DNA of 64,000 bases from contig NZ_CP058316.1 of the NCBI RefSeq assembly GCF_013389665.1, positions 992,001-1,056,000 of the forward strand, written 5' to 3'. This document shows, piece after piece, positions 55,432-62,022 of the stretch. The stretch's first letter is position 1; each line of letters begins with the position of its first letter. This stretch comes from Microbacterium oleivorans (GTDB lineage Bacteria > Actinomycetota > Actinomycetes > Actinomycetales > Microbacteriaceae). Both the position numbers and the translations under genes were made by a program. The notes beneath the pieces were generated by a model. The model was not told the origin of the DNA, did not search any database, and saw only the letters and a list, made by a program, of their open reading frames with translations.

Positions 55432-56292
55432 TCACGCCGCGAGAGCGGCTGGCGTGTTCATGATGGCTTCGAACTCGACTGGGGTCAAACGGCCCAGGCG
55501 GGGTTGTCGGCGGCGTCGGTGGTAGGTCCGCTCGATCCAGGTCACGACTGCGATCCGCAGCTCTTCGCGGGTGCCCCAGGTGCGGCGGTTGAGGACGTTC
55601 TTCTGCAGCAGCGCGAAGAACGATTCCATCGCGGCGTTGTCGCCGGCGGCACCGACGCGGCCCATGGATCCCACCATCCGGTGGTGGCTGATCTCGCGGA
55701 GGAACTTCCGGCTGCGAAACTGCGATCCTCTGTCGCTGTGGATGACGCAGCCGGCGACGTTCCCGCGCATCGCGACCGCGTTGCGGAGTGCGTTGACCGC
55801 GAGGTGTGACTTCATCCTCGAGTCGATGGAGTAGCCGACGATCTTTCCGGAAAATACGTCCTTGATCGCGCAGAGATAGAGCTTGCCCTCACCGGTCGGG
55901 TGCTCGGTGATGTCGGTCAGCCACAGTTGGTTCGGACCGGTGGCAGTGAAATCCCGCTCGACGAGGTCGTCGTGCACGGGTGGGCCGACCTTGCCGCCCT
56001 TGCCGCGGCGACGTTTCCCGAAGGTGCTCCACCAGCCGTTGCTCGAGGCGATCCGCCACGCGGTGCGATCCGCCATCGCTTCACCCACCTCGCGGGCCTC
56101 ATCGGCGAGCAGCCGGTGCCCGAACTCGGGGTCGTCACGGTGCGCGTCGAACAACGCGTTGGCGCGATACGCCTCGATCACCTCGGCGTCGGTGATGGGG
56201 CCCGCGAGCCACCGGTAGTAGGGCTGGCGGGCGAGCTTGAGAACCCGGCACGTCACCGCGACGGGGATCCCGTCGGCGGCGAGCTCGGTCAC
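55432..56292 (-). CDS. IS3-family transposase OrfB (DDE integrase core)
   Basis: 286 aa as read from GTG 56292; also reachable by -1 frameshift from orfA. DDE triad visible: LTDITEHPTGEG (Asp), VIHSDRGSQFRS (Asp), and AMESFFALLQKNVL (Glu). Intact. HTH_21 region near the start (RQPYYRWLAG). Confidence 0.92.
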   Translation of the reverse strand: MTELAADGIPVAVTCRVLKLARQPYYRWLAGPITDAEVIEAYRANALFDAHRDDPEFGHRLLADEAREVGEAMADRTAWRIASSNGWWSTFGKRRRGKGGKVGPPVHDDLVERDFTATGPNQLWLTDITEHPTGEGKLYLCAIKDVFSGKIVGYSIDSRMKSHLAVNALRNAVAMRGNVAGCVIHSDRGSQFRSRKFLREISHHRMVGSMGRVGAAGDNAAMESFFALLQKNVLNRRTWGTREELRIAVVTWIERTYHRRRRQPRLGRLTPVEFEAIMNTPAALAA

Positions 56293-56597
56293 GAGCGGGT
56301 AGAGCCTTTTCCCGGCAGGTTCGCCTGCGACAGATACGCCGCCGCCCGCCGCAGCACCTCGTTCTCCTGCTCCAGCAACCGGATCCGCTTACGCGCCTCC
56401 CGCAGCTCCGTGGACTCGGTGCGGGTCTGACCGGGCTTGGCACCCTCGTCGATGTTCGCGCGACGCATCCACTTCTGCAGCGTCATCGGGTGAACACCGA
56501 AGTCCTTCGCGATCTGCTCGATCGTCATTCCGGGCTCGCGGTTGCGCGCGACGCGGACCACGTCGCTACGGAACTCGCTCGGGTACGGCTTGGGCAC
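56289..56597 (-). CDS. IS3-family transposase OrfA (helix-turn-helix)
   Basis: 102 aa from GTG 56597 (AAGGA upstream). HTH PGMTIEQIAKDFGVHPMTLQ and a leucine-zipper-like region RKRIRLLEQENEVLRRA. A GGGAAAA slip site in the proper phase (G GGA AAA) lies at 56313-56307; a -1 shift there would give the OrfAB fusion transposase. Confidence 0.9.
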   Translation of the reverse strand: MPKPYPSEFRSDVVRVARNREPGMTIEQIAKDFGVHPMTLQKWMRRANIDEGAKPGQTRTESTELREARKRIRLLEQENEVLRRAAAYLSQANLPGKGSTRS

Positions 56598-56659
56598 GGC
56601 AACATCCTTCCAGGCCGACCCTCCGGGCAAGCCAGATCAGATGTCACCTACTCGTGCAG

Positions 56660-56725: not shown

Positions 56726-56945
56726 CGCGGATACGCTCGACAGCGCGGATGGTGCGTTGACCGGTTGAGATCACCATCGTTTACGGCGAGGTCCGGTCGG
56801 AACGCCGCTTCGCGGCGCCACGGTCCGTCAGTGTCTTCAGCGCGCCAGCAAAACCGCCTCAGAGAAGAAGCGCGCCGAGATCGGCCACGACGGACCACCG
56901 CTCAGACACCCCAGCCGCCGACAAGCCAAGGTGCGTACCACCGCA
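56726..56945. other. Remnant sequence between resolvase and RHS fragments
   Basis: No convincing gene. Both strands carry short frames only. It is probably debris of mobile elements. Confidence 0.4.
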
Positions 56946-57033
56946 CTACCCCCGCTGGTAGGTGTACCCGGTGCCGCTGATGTCACGGACGATGGCGGTG
57001 AGGTTTCCGAGTCCATCGGAGACGTAGAGGTCA
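56946..57033 (-). pseudogene. Duplicated RHS core fragment
   Basis: The frame reads DDLYVSDGLGNLTAIVRD then ISGTGYTYQRG and a stop. This matches residues of the intact RHS protein (LYVYDGLGNPTAIVRD then TGGTGYTYQ) at about 75% nucleotide identity (57741-57815). It begins exactly where the small membrane gene ends, as orphan RHS tips do, but it is cut short before any toxin domain. Confidence 0.7.
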
Positions 57034-57330
57034 TCACGCTTGGATGGCGTTGATGATCAGCCATACAAGGAACACCGTTGCGCCAAAGTTGATCACTGTC
57101 GCAACCGCCCGGAGAGCCGCTGTCCACGTCGTACGTTCGAGGACACGCCAAAGCAGAGCCGAAGTCAGGATAGCCAGGGCTCCCGCTGACAGCACACGTG
57201 GGAAGAGAGAAGCGCGATCTACCACTCCTACGGCCTGCCCGACGAGCGCCAGCGCACCGACCACGAGCAGGGATGCAGCGACCGTCATGATGAGCCCAGT
57301 CGGTGCCTTCTGATCCCGTTCGTCCGCCAT
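57034..57330 (-). CDS. Small three-helix membrane protein, candidate immunity protein
   Basis: 98 aa, ATG 57330 only 3 nt beyond the RHS stop. Three hydrophobic segments: about residues 13-36 (IMTVAASLLVVGALALVG), 42-61 (LFPRVLSAGALAILTSALLW) and 76-96 (TVINFGATVFLVWLIINAI). Charged residues lie in the short loops. Not similar to anything I know. Position directly after a polymorphic-toxin-type gene is where immunity genes lie; a membrane protein would suit a membrane-acting toxin. Confidence 0.7.
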   Translation of the reverse strand: MADERDQKAPTGLIMTVAASLLVVGALALVGQAVGVVDRASLFPRVLSAGALAILTSALLWRVLERTTWTAALRAVATVINFGATVFLVWLIINAIQA

Positions 57331-57333
57331 CTA

Positions 57334-60300
57334 TCAACACCCCAACTCGGAAATAACAAGCCAGAATACGCTTACTCCAGCGCCGACCAACGCGCCCGGG
57401 AGATTGCCAAAAGCGGCACCCACAGCGAGGCCCCAGGCGAATGAGTGAACAACGCCGGTGACGCCAGCGACGGTACTGCATGTGTTGCGCCCAGTCGGGT
57501 CCGTCTGGTTGATGGGGTCGGCGCCGGCGTAGGCGTAGCGGTTGGCGTTGACCGGGTCGATGGGTGCGTCGAGGGTGTCTTGCTGGGTCCACCGGCCGAT
57601 GGTGGTGTTGTACCAGCGGTTGCCGAAGAGGATCCATCCGGTGGCGCGGTCTTGGATGCCGCCCTTGAACAGGAACGGGTTTTGGGAGGTGCCGGCGCCG
57701 CCGCTGGTGGAGGTGAGGGTGGGGAGCCCGTACGGGTCGTACTGGTAGGTGTATCCGGTGCCGCCGGTGTCTCGGACGATGGCGGTGGGGTTCCCGAGCC
57801 CGTCGTACACGTAGAGGCTGACGGTGCCGGTGGAAGTGCGCAGCATCAGCGGCTGCCCCGTCACCGGGTCGTTCTCCAGGTACGCCGTCACCGACCCGAC
57901 CTGCGCCTGCTCGAGGATGGGCTGGCCGACCTGGTTGGTGCGGCCGTAGGTGAGCTTGCGTGTCGCGGTTTCGTTCTGCTGTTGAAGGATCTCGACCTGG
58001 CTGGTCCCGGCGTACTTATATGTGAAAGATCCGGCAGGGGTGGTGACCCCGGTCATCTGTTCGGCACCGTTGTATGCGTACGTGCCGGAGGGGTCGGCGG
58101 TGAGGTTGCCGGCACCGTCGAAGGTGTGCCCGGTGGTGGTGACCTGGTTGCCGGCGTTGAAGGTGAGAGTCTGCGAGCTCGTCGTGCCGCCAGTGGTGTT
58201 CGCCGTCAGCCGGTTCCCGCGGGCGTCGTACGTGTACGTCCACGACGTCGGGTTCGTGCCCCCGGCCTGAGTGGCGGAGGCCAGGCGTCCCGCGGTGTCG
58301 TAACCGTAGGTGGTCGACTGACCGGTCTTGTTATCGAGCTGCCATTGCAGCTTCGACCGGTCCCCGCTCGTGGCGGTGCCGCAGGTGGGGGCGGCGGTGC
58401 CGGTGTTGTAGCAGTAGGAGATGTCGCTGACGGTGACGGGGTTGCCGGCACTGTTGACGGTCTCCGCGATCGCGCGGGACACCCGCCCGGACTTGTCGTA
58501 CTCCTGCTTGCTGTGCGCCTTCCAGGCGGTGTTGCTGGTGTTGGAGTCCAGCCAGGTGTCGGTGCGTCGGCCCTGATCATCGACGGCGAAGTTCAGCAGG
58601 CCCGTCCCGGAGTCGTCCGGGTAGGTCATCGAGACCGGGATGCCGGAAGCATCGAAGGTGTTCGTGGTGGTGCCGCGGCTGTCGGTGGTGGAGACGAGGT
58701 TGGAGGCCTTGTCGTACCCATAAGTGATGGTGCCGCCGGCGAACGTGTTGACCCGGGAGGTGAGGCGACCCAGCTGGTCGTACCCGTACGTGGTTGTGCC
58801 GTTGCCATCTACGCGGGTCTTCTGACGGCCGTTGTCGTCGTAGGTGTTCGTCACGGTCGCCGTCCCCCCGGTGAACGCGGTCGACAGCAACCGGTCCGCG
58901 TTGTCATACGTGTAGGTCAGGGTCACGCCCTTGCCATCGGTTGCGGTGCGAACCCGGCCGAACGCGTCGTAGGTGAACGCCTTCGCACCCAGCGAGGACC
59001 CGGTGACGGGGGTGAGCGCATTGAGCTGGAAGTCGCTGTTGTAGCCGTAGGTGGTCTTGTTCGACCCGTTCCCCGGAGCGAGCGCTGTCGCGAGCGTGCC
59101 GTTGGTGTTGTAGGTCAGCGTCGACGTCGCCGCCAGAGCGTTCGACGACGTCAGTGCGTTACCGGCACCGTTGTAGGTGTACGTCGTGGTGTTCCCCGAC
59201 CCGTCCGTCGACGAGGACGGAAGATACTTCGTCGACGCCGCCGTGTTCGCATACGCCGCGGACTCGGTGGAGCCAGTCGGAGACTGCAGCGACGTGCGAG
59301 AGTCGCCGTTGTTGGCGTCGTACCCGGCGGTGGTCGTGCCAGCAGTCGCGCCCGACCCTTGGGTTGCTGTCGCGACATCGCCGTTGCCGGTGTAGGTCGC
59401 CGCGCGGGCGCGCCCGAGCTCGTCGGTCGATGCGGTCACCAGCTTCGAAGTCGCGTTGACCGTGTAGGTGATGCGGGGGACGGTGTTCACCGCCGCGGCC
59501 TCGTTCGTGTTCGGCTGCGCCACAAGGGTCTGCGTCGCCGATGGGTACGCGAACCGGGTGACCGAGGTCCCCGGGGAACCAGCCGAGGTGTTCGCGCGGG
59601 AGATGGCGGTGACCTTGCGGGAATTCTGGTTGTCGTACGTGATCGTCATCACACCGCCATCAGGCGCCGTGATCGAAGTCAACGTGTTCGCCGGCCCATA
59701 CCCGAACACGGTGTCCTTACCCGTGAGGTCGGTGATCTTCGTCAGATTCGCGGAACCGTCACGGGTGTACACCATCGACCGCGACAAACCACCGGAGGAC
59801 TGCGACACCGTCGTGGTCGTCGTCGACGTGGTGATCGTCGCCGTCCGCGCAGCTGTCGGGCCGGCGGTGGAGGTGACGGTCATGGTCGACCCGTACGCCA
59901 GGGCGGTGGTGTTGCCGTTGCGATCCGCGATCGACACCGCCCGCCCATCCGCGTTGAATGTCGCCACGACACTGGACTCACGGAACGTGAGCCGGTAATC
60001 CGTGCCGACCTTCACCAGATCCGCCTTCACCCCCGCCGGAGACGCAAACGCTGTCGTCGAACCCGACACCGGGGTGAACGACCAGCGGGTGCCATCAGCT
60101 GCGGTGTACTCCACCACGCCCGACGCCGCACCGGAGTTGAGGCCGCCGATGCCCTGCACCCCGAACGTCCACCGCGACGCCGCCACCGGACTCACCGGAC
60201 CACTCGTCGGGGTGAGAGAGCTGTAGGACTCACTGAACCCCACCTGCTGCGTCACACCCGGGAGGCTGAGCCCGGTGGTCTGAACCCGGAAGTTCCCGGT

Positions 60301-60540
60301 CCCCACGTCCACGAACGCGGTCACCGAATCGGAGACTGGGAACTGAAGCTCTGTCGCGCCCGGACGGTCCCCGCCCGCGCCGACGTCATACCCACCCGCG
60401 GGGAGACCGAAGGTCACCACCAGCGGCACCGCTGACGAAGGCGACACCGCCGTGAACGTCAACGCGGCCGCGAGAAGCGCAACACTGAACCCGATCGACC
60501 TCACCCGAAAAGAACCCCGACGAGACAGCACAAAACCCAC
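57334..60540 (-). CDS. Secreted RHS-repeat protein with C-terminal hydrophobic tip (candidate polymorphic toxin)
   Basis: 1068 aa. Sec signal peptide (residues 1-37, VRSIGFSVALLAAALTFTAV then SPSSA). A long beta-rich region with many YD-type RHS repeats follows (e.g. FTYDAFGRVRTATDGKGVTL, YGYDQLGRLTSRVN). The RHS-associated core GRWTQQDTLDAPIDPVNANR through DPINQTDPTGR closes the shell (about residues 975-1018). The last 50 residues (from NTCSTVAGVTGV) are a separate hydrophobic, glycine-rich tip: GAAFGNLPGALVGAGVSVFW. RHS shells enclose variable C-terminal toxins. No enzyme motif is seen; the tip looks membrane-active. Confidence 0.85.
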   Translation of the reverse strand: MGFVLSRRGSFRVRSIGFSVALLAAALTFTAVSPSSAVPLVVTFGLPAGGYDVGAGGDRPGATELQFPVSDSVTAFVDVGTGNFRVQTTGLSLPGVTQQVGFSESYSSLTPTSGPVSPVAASRWTFGVQGIGGLNSGAASGVVEYTAADGTRWSFTPVSGSTTAFASPAGVKADLVKVGTDYRLTFRESSVVATFNADGRAVSIADRNGNTTALAYGSTMTVTSTAGPTAARTATITTSTTTTTVSQSSGGLSRSMVYTRDGSANLTKITDLTGKDTVFGYGPANTLTSITAPDGGVMTITYDNQNSRKVTAISRANTSAGSPGTSVTRFAYPSATQTLVAQPNTNEAAAVNTVPRITYTVNATSKLVTASTDELGRARAATYTGNGDVATATQGSGATAGTTTAGYDANNGDSRTSLQSPTGSTESAAYANTAASTKYLPSSSTDGSGNTTTYTYNGAGNALTSSNALAATSTLTYNTNGTLATALAPGNGSNKTTYGYNSDFQLNALTPVTGSSLGAKAFTYDAFGRVRTATDGKGVTLTYTYDNADRLLSTAFTGGTATVTNTYDDNGRQKTRVDGNGTTTYGYDQLGRLTSRVNTFAGGTITYGYDKASNLVSTTDSRGTTTNTFDASGIPVSMTYPDDSGTGLLNFAVDDQGRRTDTWLDSNTSNTAWKAHSKQEYDKSGRVSRAIAETVNSAGNPVTVSDISYCYNTGTAAPTCGTATSGDRSKLQWQLDNKTGQSTTYGYDTAGRLASATQAGGTNPTSWTYTYDARGNRLTANTTGGTTSSQTLTFNAGNQVTTTGHTFDGAGNLTADPSGTYAYNGAEQMTGVTTPAGSFTYKYAGTSQVEILQQQNETATRKLTYGRTNQVGQPILEQAQVGSVTAYLENDPVTGQPLMLRTSTGTVSLYVYDGLGNPTAIVRDTGGTGYTYQYDPYGLPTLTSTSGGAGTSQNPFLFKGGIQDRATGWILFGNRWYNTTIGRWTQQDTLDAPIDPVNANRYAYAGADPINQTDPTGRNTCSTVAGVTGVVHSFAWGLAVGAAFGNLPGALVGAGVSVFWLVISELGC

Positions 60541-60784: not shown

Positions 60785-61099
60785 ATGAACAGGAAGTATT
60801 CGCCGGAGATGCGTGAGCGGGCGTTGCGGATGCTCGCGGAGACGCGGCCGTCGCACCCCACGATGATGAGCGCGGTCCGCCATGTGGCCGGGTTGCTGGG
60901 GATGAGTCCGGAGACGCTGCGGTTGTGGCAGCGTCGCTACGAGGTCGACGCTGGTGTGAAGCCCGGCGTCACGACCGAAGCGGCCGCGGAGATCAAGCGG
61001 CTGCAGAAGGAGGTCTCGGAGTTGCGGAAAGCGAACGAGATCCTTAAGGCTGCGAGCATCTTTTTCGCGAAGGAGCTCGACCACCCCTCGACGAGATGA
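60785..61099 (+). CDS. IS3-family transposase OrfA
   Basis: 104 aa. HTH MMSAVRHVAGLLGMSPETLR, then a coiled segment RLQKEVSELRKANEILKAAS ending IFFAKELDHPSTR, usual for this group. Overlaps orfB by 4 nt. A TTTTTC run (in ATC TTT TTC) is a candidate -1 slip site. Confidence 0.9.
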   Translation: MNRKYSPEMRERALRMLAETRPSHPTMMSAVRHVAGLLGMSPETLRLWQRRYEVDAGVKPGVTTEAAAEIKRLQKEVSELRKANEILKAASIFFAKELDHPSTR

Positions 61100-62022
61100 T
61101 CCGGTTCATCAGCGAACACCGGGATCGTTTCGGGGTCGAGCTCATCTGCCAGGTCCTACGACCGGCAGTGAGAGGATTCCTCACCTCACGCGGCTTCCGT
61201 GCCGCGGTGAATCGGACTCCGTCCGCCAGGCGATTGCAGGATGATCTGCTGGTGCCCGAGGTTGCCCGGCTGCACGCGGAGAACTACGGCGTCTATGGGC
61301 GGCGGAAGATGCACGCGCTGCTGAGACGACAGGGGTGGGGTATCGGGCGTGACCAGACCGAACGGCTGATGCGGCTCGCCGGTGTTCGCGGGGTGCGCAA
61401 GTCCAAGCGAGTGTTCACGACGAAGTCCGATCCCGCCCTGCGACGACCGACGGATCTCGTCAATCGCCGATTCACCGCCGACGGTCCCCGCCTGCTCTGG
61501 GTCTGCGACGTCACGTATGTAGCGACTTGGTCTGGGTTCGCGTACGTCGCGTTCGTCACCGACGTCTACTCTCGGCGCATCGTCGGATGGAACGTCGCAG
61601 CCACGCTTCGGGCGGAGATCCTGCCGATGCAGGCGCTCGATATGGCCGCGTGGGACGCCGGTGACGACCTGACAGGGCTGACGCATCACTCGGATCATGG
61701 ATCGAACTACAGGGCGATGGTCTACACCGACCGGATCGTCGAACTCGGCGCCGTTCCCTCGACCGGAACGGTCGGCGACAGTTTCGATAATGCGATGGCA
61801 GAAGCGGTCAACAACCTGTACAAGACCGAGCTCATCCGCCAACGCGGTCCCTGGCGGACCGTTGAGCAGGTCGAGGTGGCGACGCTCGAATGGGTGTGGT
61901 GGTGGAACAACCAGCGCCTCCACGGCGAGCTCGACATGCGCACCCCACTCGAGGTCGAGCAGGCATACTACGCTGACCTGGAATCAGCCCAGCCTGCACC
62001 TGCCGGACAAGGCTCCCGATAG
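61096..62022 (+). CDS. IS3-family transposase OrfB (DDE integrase core)
   Basis: 308 aa. RDRFGVELICQVLRPAVRGF at the start; YGVYGRRKMHALLRRQGWGI; DDE triad in LWVCDVTYVATWSG, THHSDHGSNYRA and NAMAEAVNNLYKTELI. Intact. Its stop falls in the right inverted repeat. Confidence 0.93.
   Translation: MIRFISEHRDRFGVELICQVLRPAVRGFLTSRGFRAAVNRTPSARRLQDDLLVPEVARLHAENYGVYGRRKMHALLRRQGWGIGRDQTERLMRLAGVRGVRKSKRVFTTKSDPALRRPTDLVNRRFTADGPRLLWVCDVTYVATWSGFAYVAFVTDVYSRRIVGWNVAATLRAEILPMQALDMAAWDAGDDLTGLTHHSDHGSNYRAMVYTDRIVELGAVPSTGTVGDSFDNAMAEAVNNLYKTELIRQRGPWRTVEQVEVATLEWVWWWNNQRLHGELDMRTPLEVEQAYYADLESAQPAPAGQGSR

Follow-up and report, generated by a model that had tools for sequence, protein, structure and literature searches.

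What does an RHS protein carry when its core is followed by a tail of only 50 residues, and what is the role of the 98-residue protein encoded directly behind it? These questions are raised by a gene pair of Microbacterium oleivorans, located on the minus strand of a 64,000-nucleotide stretch (positions 992,001 to 1,056,000 of contig NZ_CP058316.1, RefSeq assembly GCF_013389665.1) that is referred to here as the window. The RHS protein was interpreted as a polymorphic toxin that carries a miniature membrane toxin resembling a bacteriocin, and its neighbour as the small membrane immunity protein that blocks this toxin; a probability of roughly 0.7 was assigned to this reading. A bacteriocin-like tip with a membrane immunity protein had already been proposed in a first-pass annotation of the window; sequence comparisons support that proposal and suggest that it applies more broadly than had been supposed. 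The arrangement exceeds chance, because it was found again in relatives.

Gene pair and RHS shell

The first-pass annotation had laid out a Sec-type signal, an RHS shell, a core ending in DPTGR, a 50-aa tip, a 3-nt gap and a 98-aa protein. This layout was confirmed by the open reading frames (ORFs) and by domain matches, as follows (positions are those of the window; AF2, AlphaFold2).

57334-60540, minus strand: ORF of the RHS protein, 1068 aa, GTG start (ORF reading)
60430..60540, minus strand: putative Sec signal peptide, approximately residues 1-37, SSA/VP (judged by eye from the ORF)
57487..60429, minus strand: RHS shell, residues 38-1018, YD/RHS repeats, predicted beta-cocoon (PF05593, AF2, Foldseek)
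57490..57741, minus strand: RHS-associated core, residues 934-1017, with candidate aspartyl-protease residues D988 and D1014 (DTLD ... DPTG; TIGR03696, alignment)
57337..57486, minus strand: tip, residues 1019-1068, a 50-aa putative membrane toxin (two Cys, zipper, hairpin model with helices 5-25 and 29-49, homologue P0002)
57034-57330, minus strand: ORF for the 98-aa protein, ATG start (ORF reading), a putative immunity protein with three hydrophobic segments that starts 3 nt past the RHS stop

The junction between the two ORFs reads stop TGA, TAG (3 nt), then ATG. Judged by eye, the N-terminus of the RHS protein is signal-like (RR, a hydrophobic stretch, then SSA/VP), and a similar hydrophobic leader begins many homologous shells. 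The signal-type N-terminus argues for Sec export as the likely route over delivery by a type VI secretion system (T6SS).

Both parts by which an RHS/YD-repeat polymorphic toxin is recognized, the repeats and the RHS-associated core, were present in the window protein: PF05593 detected 11 RHS-repeat stretches (E=4.7e-34), and TIGR03696 matched residues 934-1017 at 62.6 bits (cut-off 32.5). A Pfam scan of the protein (curated families only) returned the RHS repeats and a sub-threshold DUF6531, and a wall-binding domain was not found in that scan. Modelling with AF2 (53 sequences) gave a mean predicted local distance difference test score (pLDDT) of 84.7, mostly 85-98 for residues 60-980. When the shell was compared to known structures using Foldseek, the 14 top matches were solved RHS proteins (E 3e-44 to 4e-35) with modest global template modelling scores (0.24-0.53 by query length); ranked next after the solved RHS cocoons were teneurins (one teneurin-like protein, TLP, among the matches) and Tc-type cocoons. 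By phmmer, 27 PDB sequences matched the RHS protein, chiefly RHS proteins and teneurins, and the fold predicted for the shell is the beta-cocoon of RHS toxins.

Homologues were collected by a protein search with the core region (111 at E<=1e-10), in which the scored region included the tail and only proteins of 0.55-1.75x query length were findable; giant RHS proteins are therefore unsampled by this search, and the genome survey described below carried no such bound. D988 and D1014 were invariant across the 53-sequence alignment, and the catalytic-Asp motif pattern was present in 103 of the 111 core homologues. An Asp pair of the aspartyl-protease kind is hence found ahead of the tip, with cleavage itself being predicted. 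In Tse5 of Pseudomonas aeruginosa the cut lies four residues past the second Asp (statements on published systems, here and below, refer to excerpts of the sources), and a cut is therefore expected after R1018 in the window protein, which would free exactly the 50-aa tip. The spacing between the two Asp is 26 in the window protein and 23 in Tse5.

The tip

The tail after DPTGR begins with NTC and ends with LGC, has Cys at tip positions 3 and 50, and contains a single charged residue. The tip contains the stretch GAAFGNLPGALVGAGVSVFW, which shares residues with a run of five glycines spaced exactly as G-x3 (tip positions 19, 23, 27, 31 and 35; the zipper glycines); such a run was reached in 357 of 200,000 shuffles of the tip's own residues. 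Helices, which the first-pass annotation had brought up for the tip, were returned by AF2 in a model made from the tip without any alignment, as a helix-turn-helix with helices at 5-25 and 29-49 (mean pLDDT 77, predicted template modelling score 0.43). Because such a hairpin would place Cys 3 and Cys 50 at the same end, a disulfide between them is plausible on the basis of the model.

One clear homologue of the tip was found on a different shell, as the first-pass annotation had envisaged. This is the tail of the metagenomic RHS protein P0002, which is 25/50 identical to the window tip (E=3e-15, single comparison), keeps both Cys and all five zipper glycines, and ends at a near-identical point with the same C-terminal Cys. 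The tail alone (last 53 residues) had no match at E<=1 in a 5.8-billion-protein set; this does not amount to absence, because the core search gave P0002 with its 50%-identical tip, so the tail-only search is insensitive to such pieces. Searched against 299 genomes of the same family, the tail matched 5 genomes (own included), and the other matches that were read reflected composition, in stretches within larger or unrelated proteins. Alignment with the tips of loci L053, L105 and L120 and of protein P0044 was suggestive at most.

Scans of Pfam, NCBIfam and PHROGs returned no family above cut-off, or strong, for the window tip or the 98-aa protein. Membership of the tip in the class II bacteriocins or the E492 group was not supported by family model: NF051486 and PF10439 both scored below cut-off (9.1 bits versus 27.1 for PF10439). 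Class II bacteriocins and E492-group microcins are defined as free-standing precursors bearing their own leader; the peptide considered here instead forms the C-terminal end of an RHS protein whose N-terminus is signal-type, and on that count too it differs from them. Foldseek of the tip alone gave one meaningless match (E=9.1), merely re-scored by VIA-align, and was set aside.

Short tails across the shell clade

Tails of 40-100 aa end 101 of the 111 core homologues, and by this count short hydrophobic tips are the rule for this actinobacterial shell clade. Two Cys were present in 90 of the 101 tails, four in 6, none in 3, one in 1 and three in 1, and 57 tails had two Cys with one at most 12 residues from each end. 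Compared to the shells, the tails were rich in Cys (3.0% versus 0.28% of residues) and in Gly+Ala (37% versus 22%) and poor in charged residues (7.7% versus 13.6%). GxxxGxxxG occurred in 50/101 tails, against a mean of 25 and a maximum of 35 in 200 rounds of shuffling. The first-pass annotation had expected such a combination to be unusual, an expectation that did not hold: membrane-active RHS tips are known from Tse5 and from BiTLP (a bacterial teneurin-like protein of Bacillus inaquosorum), and short hydrophobic tips end most shells of this clade. Family size was counted as 101 tails from one protein search and 43 distinct tip-neighbour pairs from DNA; clustering of tips at 40% identity chained 116 of 149 via low complexity and was discarded.

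A second tip architecture of approximately 100-111 aa, also Gly-rich and on the same shell kinds, was observed in five proteins (P0031, P0061, P0074, P0075 and P0083) and at two loci (L038 and L130). The tip has four Cys in all five proteins and at L038 but two at L130; at both loci, a small ORF containing two hydrophobic segments comes next. Outside this class, the RHS tails at L139 (G516) and L143 (G476) have 9 Cys in 71 aa and 8 Cys in 56 aa, respectively, and are followed by ORFs without hydrophobic segments; these tails are possibly a different kind of mini-tip.

The membrane protein that follows

The genome survey covered the 299 genomes of the same family, 90 of which contained the RHS core at E<=1e-6. 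From the longer list of matches, the best 80 besides the window's own were parsed, which are all those down to E=1.8e-12. Hydrophobic (transmembrane) segments were called using a hydropathy script (19-residue window, mean 1.6; no dedicated predictor). The downstream ORF at each locus was picked by script (start -45 to +160 nt from the stop, more hydrophobic segments favoured), and controls were treated by the same rule. Three survey loci with tails <45 aa (L102, L041 and L048) were omitted from the comparison of short and long tails.

An ORF of <=130 aa with >=2 hydrophobic segments was directly next in 23 of the 24 loci with 45-100-aa tails, compared to 3 of the 53 with longer tails (Fisher p=2.4e-15). 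When L077, L049 and L033 were removed (<300 nt of DNA past the stop), the latter count was 3/50 (p=7e-15). A second set comprised 29 named loci from Microbacterium, Schumannella, Arthrobacter, Leifsonia, Cellulomonas, Subtercola, Cryobacterium, Curtobacterium, Frigoribacterium, Frondihabitans, further Microbacteriaceae and Aeromicrobium. Of these, 27 were parsed (the Aeromicrobium locus is not among them, and L126 and L135, with interrupted or partial cores, were left uncounted), and a small membrane-type ORF was found directly 3' in 27/27, versus 6/101 background long ORFs from the same loci. The first-pass annotation's claim that the RHS gene is followed by a membrane protein was thereby extended to homologous loci in both sets, and the refuting case it had named, RHS homologues lacking such a protein, was not borne out. 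The QQDTLD-type core of the window protein was present in 15/24 short-tail and 0/53 long-tail survey loci; in the remaining nine short-tail loci the core is of a second type, F[TN]QxDP[ST]GQ, which also occurs in one long-tail locus, L038, with its 111-aa, four-Cys tail.

These counts bear on the idea that the tail is a glycine-rich translocation linker, left from a longer toxin that was lost by truncation or recombination, with the 98-aa ORF being unrelated. Some longer-tailed RHS proteins of the survey (e.g. L033 and L049) start with hydrophobic stretches and continue into further domains, as a linker would suggest, and a core remnant and transposase genes lie near the locus. Independent truncations would not yield common lengths together with a membrane ORF, so the idea is largely refuted by the 101/111 shells ending at similar short lengths and by the membrane ORF at every parsed named locus; P0002, in addition, stops at almost the same point and shares the C-terminal Cys. 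We consider it very improbable.

In hydropathy plots the 98-aa protein has three maxima, and its position, size class and codon bias agree with those of the neighbours at 27/27 parsed named loci. A small membrane protein next door, as expected of the immunity partner of a bacteriocin, is present as a layout, with immunity being putative; the 98-aa membrane protein probably protects the producer. Searched alone against the 5.8-billion-protein set it returned nothing at E<=1, and of the 299 family genomes 17 were matched (own included), where the other matches read were composition-driven and fell in larger or unrelated proteins (the reading of matches to the tail and the 98-aa protein left out L010, L012, L017, L019 and L021). 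It is 23% identical to the neighbour at L105. A W-x-L-x-[DE]-R-T-x-W stretch is common to the 98-aa protein and a small membrane protein conserved in the family, seen at L007, L008 and L018; this likeness may be fortuitous or mark a remote cellular relative.

Because some loci belong to both the named and the survey set (e.g. L109=L035, L113=L053), the distinct pairs number 43, window included. Pfam and NCBIfam were scanned with 36 of the 43 paired tips plus P0002 and with 41 of the 43 neighbours, and the sole strong match was DUF4190 in one neighbour (E=4.7e-12). By eye, this neighbour is that of L051, and the neighbour at L038, outside the scan, looks alike; judging from sequence, the DUF4190 type is possibly a cellular membrane domain recruited as an immunity protein. 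The same kind of shell was also observed on plasmid pSGAir0570_2 (typed mobilizable) of Microbacterium sp. SGAir0570 (L136), annotated there as three successive coding sequences. Its tip is Cys-paired, with residues matching the tail of P0001, and a 52-aa membrane-like protein with two hydrophobic stretches (by eye) is encoded 17 nt past the tip.

Exchange of tip and neighbour as a cassette

Tails were found to differ between near-identical shells: among 12 pairs of shells >=85% identical, the tails were <35% identical in 10. A tail conserved as a structural plug, which the first-pass annotation had named as a finding that would speak against it, was thus not observed. Tip and neighbour were also set apart by codon usage, as G+C content at third codon positions (GC3) across the named loci averaged 0.84 over the final 450 nt of the shell but 0.59 and 0.62 in tip and neighbour, respectively, and was lower in these two at 27/27 loci; the corresponding values in the window were 0.87 for the shell core, 0.62 and 0.66. 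Displaced core fragments were present downstream in 5/27 named loci (two of them, from Leifsonia, are near-identical), and the window contains one directly 3' of the 98-aa gene, read as the remnant of an earlier cassette:

56919-57035, minus strand: displaced older RHS-core fragment with an internal stop (aligned to residues 907-945, clear over ~25 residues)

Across the 43 pairs, similarity between tips correlated with similarity between neighbours (Mantel r=0.50, 0/5000 permutations), a correlation that may partly reflect shared ancestry. Taken from sequence, these patterns point to exchange of a variable tip and a candidate immunity gene as a cassette, in the manner of RHS polymorphic toxins.

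The same observations address an explanation without any toxin, in which the tail anchors the shell C-terminally in the membrane or plugs it structurally, and the small membrane protein is the partner on which the tail docks or assembles. Tails that are mostly hydrophobic and that sit on nearly all shells (101/111 at 40-100 aa) would suit such a role. An anchor or plug would be expected to be conserved with its shell, yet the tails differ between near-identical shells, tail and neighbour share a codon bias distinct from that of the shell, and displaced core fragments lie downstream both in the named loci and in the window; the Cys pair, moreover, suits a released peptide. This explanation was judged quite improbable.

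Proposed mechanism and its weighing

For the favoured reading, a membrane toxin with its immunity protein, the following course is proposed. Sequence, model or statistics provide a basis for the export signal, the shell and the protease motif as well as for hairpin, zipper and pairing; cleavage, disulfide, release, toxicity and immunity are what we infer. After Sec export, the RHS shell would close round the tip, and the aspartyl protease would cut past DPTGR (residue 1018) to free the 50-aa tip. The two Cys would then form a disulfide closing the helix-turn-helix. Released at a neighbouring cell, the tip would be driven by its glycine zipper to insert into the cytoplasmic membrane and oligomerise, depolarising the target membrane. 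In the producer's membrane, the 98-aa protein would block insertion or assembly of the cognate tip.

Several points weigh against this reading. Tails below the hydrophobic-segment threshold occur in 2/24 survey and 8/27 named loci, and when the size limit is lifted, 9/53 long-tail loci have a next ORF with >=2 hydrophobic segments. Shared ancestry may contribute to the Mantel correlation, and similar tips with unrelated neighbours were found in L134/L051, L125/L111 and L132/L127. The gene next to P0002 was not readable, and the searches made found no convincing homologue of the 98-aa protein, so that its putative role is based on where it lies, how large and hydrophobic it is, and how its counterparts at other loci compare. 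In the full-length AF2 model, confidence drops past approximately residue 990, so the protease region is weakly modelled, and the tip is unstructured (pLDDT <50). The E492_microcin model NF051486 was not significant for the tip (E=0.038, 14.5 bits versus a cut-off of 50). Class II bacteriocins are cationic, unlike the tip with its one charged residue. The literature searched contained no experiment on any family member. Finally, Tde1 (PMC10240207) indicates that a glycine zipper can serve translocation and not killing.

A toxin-immunity pair might also work without a pore, if the tip bound and blocked one specific target, either a membrane protein or the lipid cycle of the cell wall, and the 98-aa protein masked it. 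The genetic evidence (two-Cys tails, neighbour, tail polymorphism and codon bias) is the same for this alternative, and the variety of tips could mirror differing targets. Microcin E492 docks on ManYZ, and ionophores of contact-dependent growth inhibition (CDI) appear to use integral membrane proteins, which makes a membrane-protein target plausible. Gly-x3 zippers, a helical hairpin and scarce charges suit membrane insertion and oligomerisation better, and a blocked target was considered unlikely.

Comparison with known systems

Among the nearest known systems, Tse5 likewise has an RHS cocoon, keeps a conserved pair of Asp close to its C-terminal plug and combines a membrane-active tip with an immunity gene. 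It differs in that its tip comprises residues 1169-1317 and is delivered by T6SS, whereas the window protein has a 50-aa tip with a Cys near each end, a Sec-type signal and an actinobacterial host. BiTLP resembles the window protein in having a Gram-positive YD shell with a hydrophobic C-terminal domain (CTD), which permeabilises Escherichia coli solely when exported; the other TLP CTDs chosen in that study were predicted enzymes, Hint or outer-membrane-type, and the excerpt of it describes no Cys-paired mini-tip family with tiny membrane partners. With membrane-active RHS tips already known from Tse5 and BiTLP, the general kind is therefore known. WapA of Bacillus and Streptococcus is also a Sec-exported Gram-positive RHS polymorphic toxin with adjacent immunity genes, differing in size (>300 kDa, versus 1031 aa past the putative signal in the window protein) and perhaps in its potential wall-anchoring domain.

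Among peptides, Microcin E492 with MceB and the Cdz system pair a membrane peptide, built as a helix-turn-helix or on a Gly zipper, with a small three-segment immunity protein, much like the putative pair in the window. MceB has 95 aa and three predicted membrane segments, and CdzI, the partner of CdzC/D, has three predicted transmembrane segments; TelE is another glycine-zipper toxin. In contrast to the window peptide, which is the end of an RHS shell, the E492 and Cdz peptides are free-standing, with type I secretion for Cdz and a leader and siderophore modification for E492. The CDI ionophore toxins (CdiA-CT) resemble the reading proposed here in being polymorphic, in acting on membrane potential and in having immunity proteins that are specific and vary strongly; they differ as five-helix bundles with separate entry domains on CdiA of Gram-negatives. 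The excerpt of the 2012 polymorphic-toxin catalogue has one pore-forming entry, Tox-WTIP of Proteobacteria, with two membrane helices, and its Wx[ST]IP motif does not occur in the window tip. Within the open-licence literature (most subscription journals lie outside it), no account was found of a family in Actinomycetota in which short, glycine-rich RHS tips with paired Cys stand next to tiny membrane proteins.

The relatives place the locus in a large, fast-changing family of miniature and probably membrane-damaging weapons. We lean slightly towards a wider proposal, namely that soil and plant actinobacteria use dedicated RHS shells to deliver only disulfide-closed glycine-rich membrane peptides of ~50-110 aa, each with a tiny immunity protein, which would be a large and rapidly evolving class of leaderless bacteriocins that an autocleaving capsule packages and activates and that needs no ABC exporter. 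If true, Gram-positive RHS capsules would carry bacteriocin-sized membrane peptides and not enzymes alone, and the role of many short actinobacterial RHS tails would be accounted for. The family would then also supply numerous membrane peptides that are unlike one another and come with their natural immunity partners, and would be a small test system for cargo release from a Sec-exported RHS shell and for specific immunity conferred by a tiny membrane protein.

Genome context

The RHS core was present in 2/6 survey genomes of the genus (own and G258), and the locus therefore looks accessory. Phylum-wide, 8/396 genomes (own included) matched the window core at E<=1e-20. On both sides the RHS-immunity module is flanked by transposase gene pairs, presumably IS3-type, that point outward:

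55432-56630, minus strand: transposase gene pair (PF01527 and rve domains)
60785-62022, plus strand: transposase gene pair (PF01527 and rve domains)

A decayed second RHS copy, which like the transposase pairs and the displaced core fragment is absent from the first-pass annotation, was observed elsewhere in the same genome (G000:C1:572576-573718, loci L002 and L003). What remains of it is an 89%-identical stretch over residues 833-1035 and a 33-residue N-terminal piece, with a 20-aa remnant of a tail ahead of an ORF that we take to be MerR-like.

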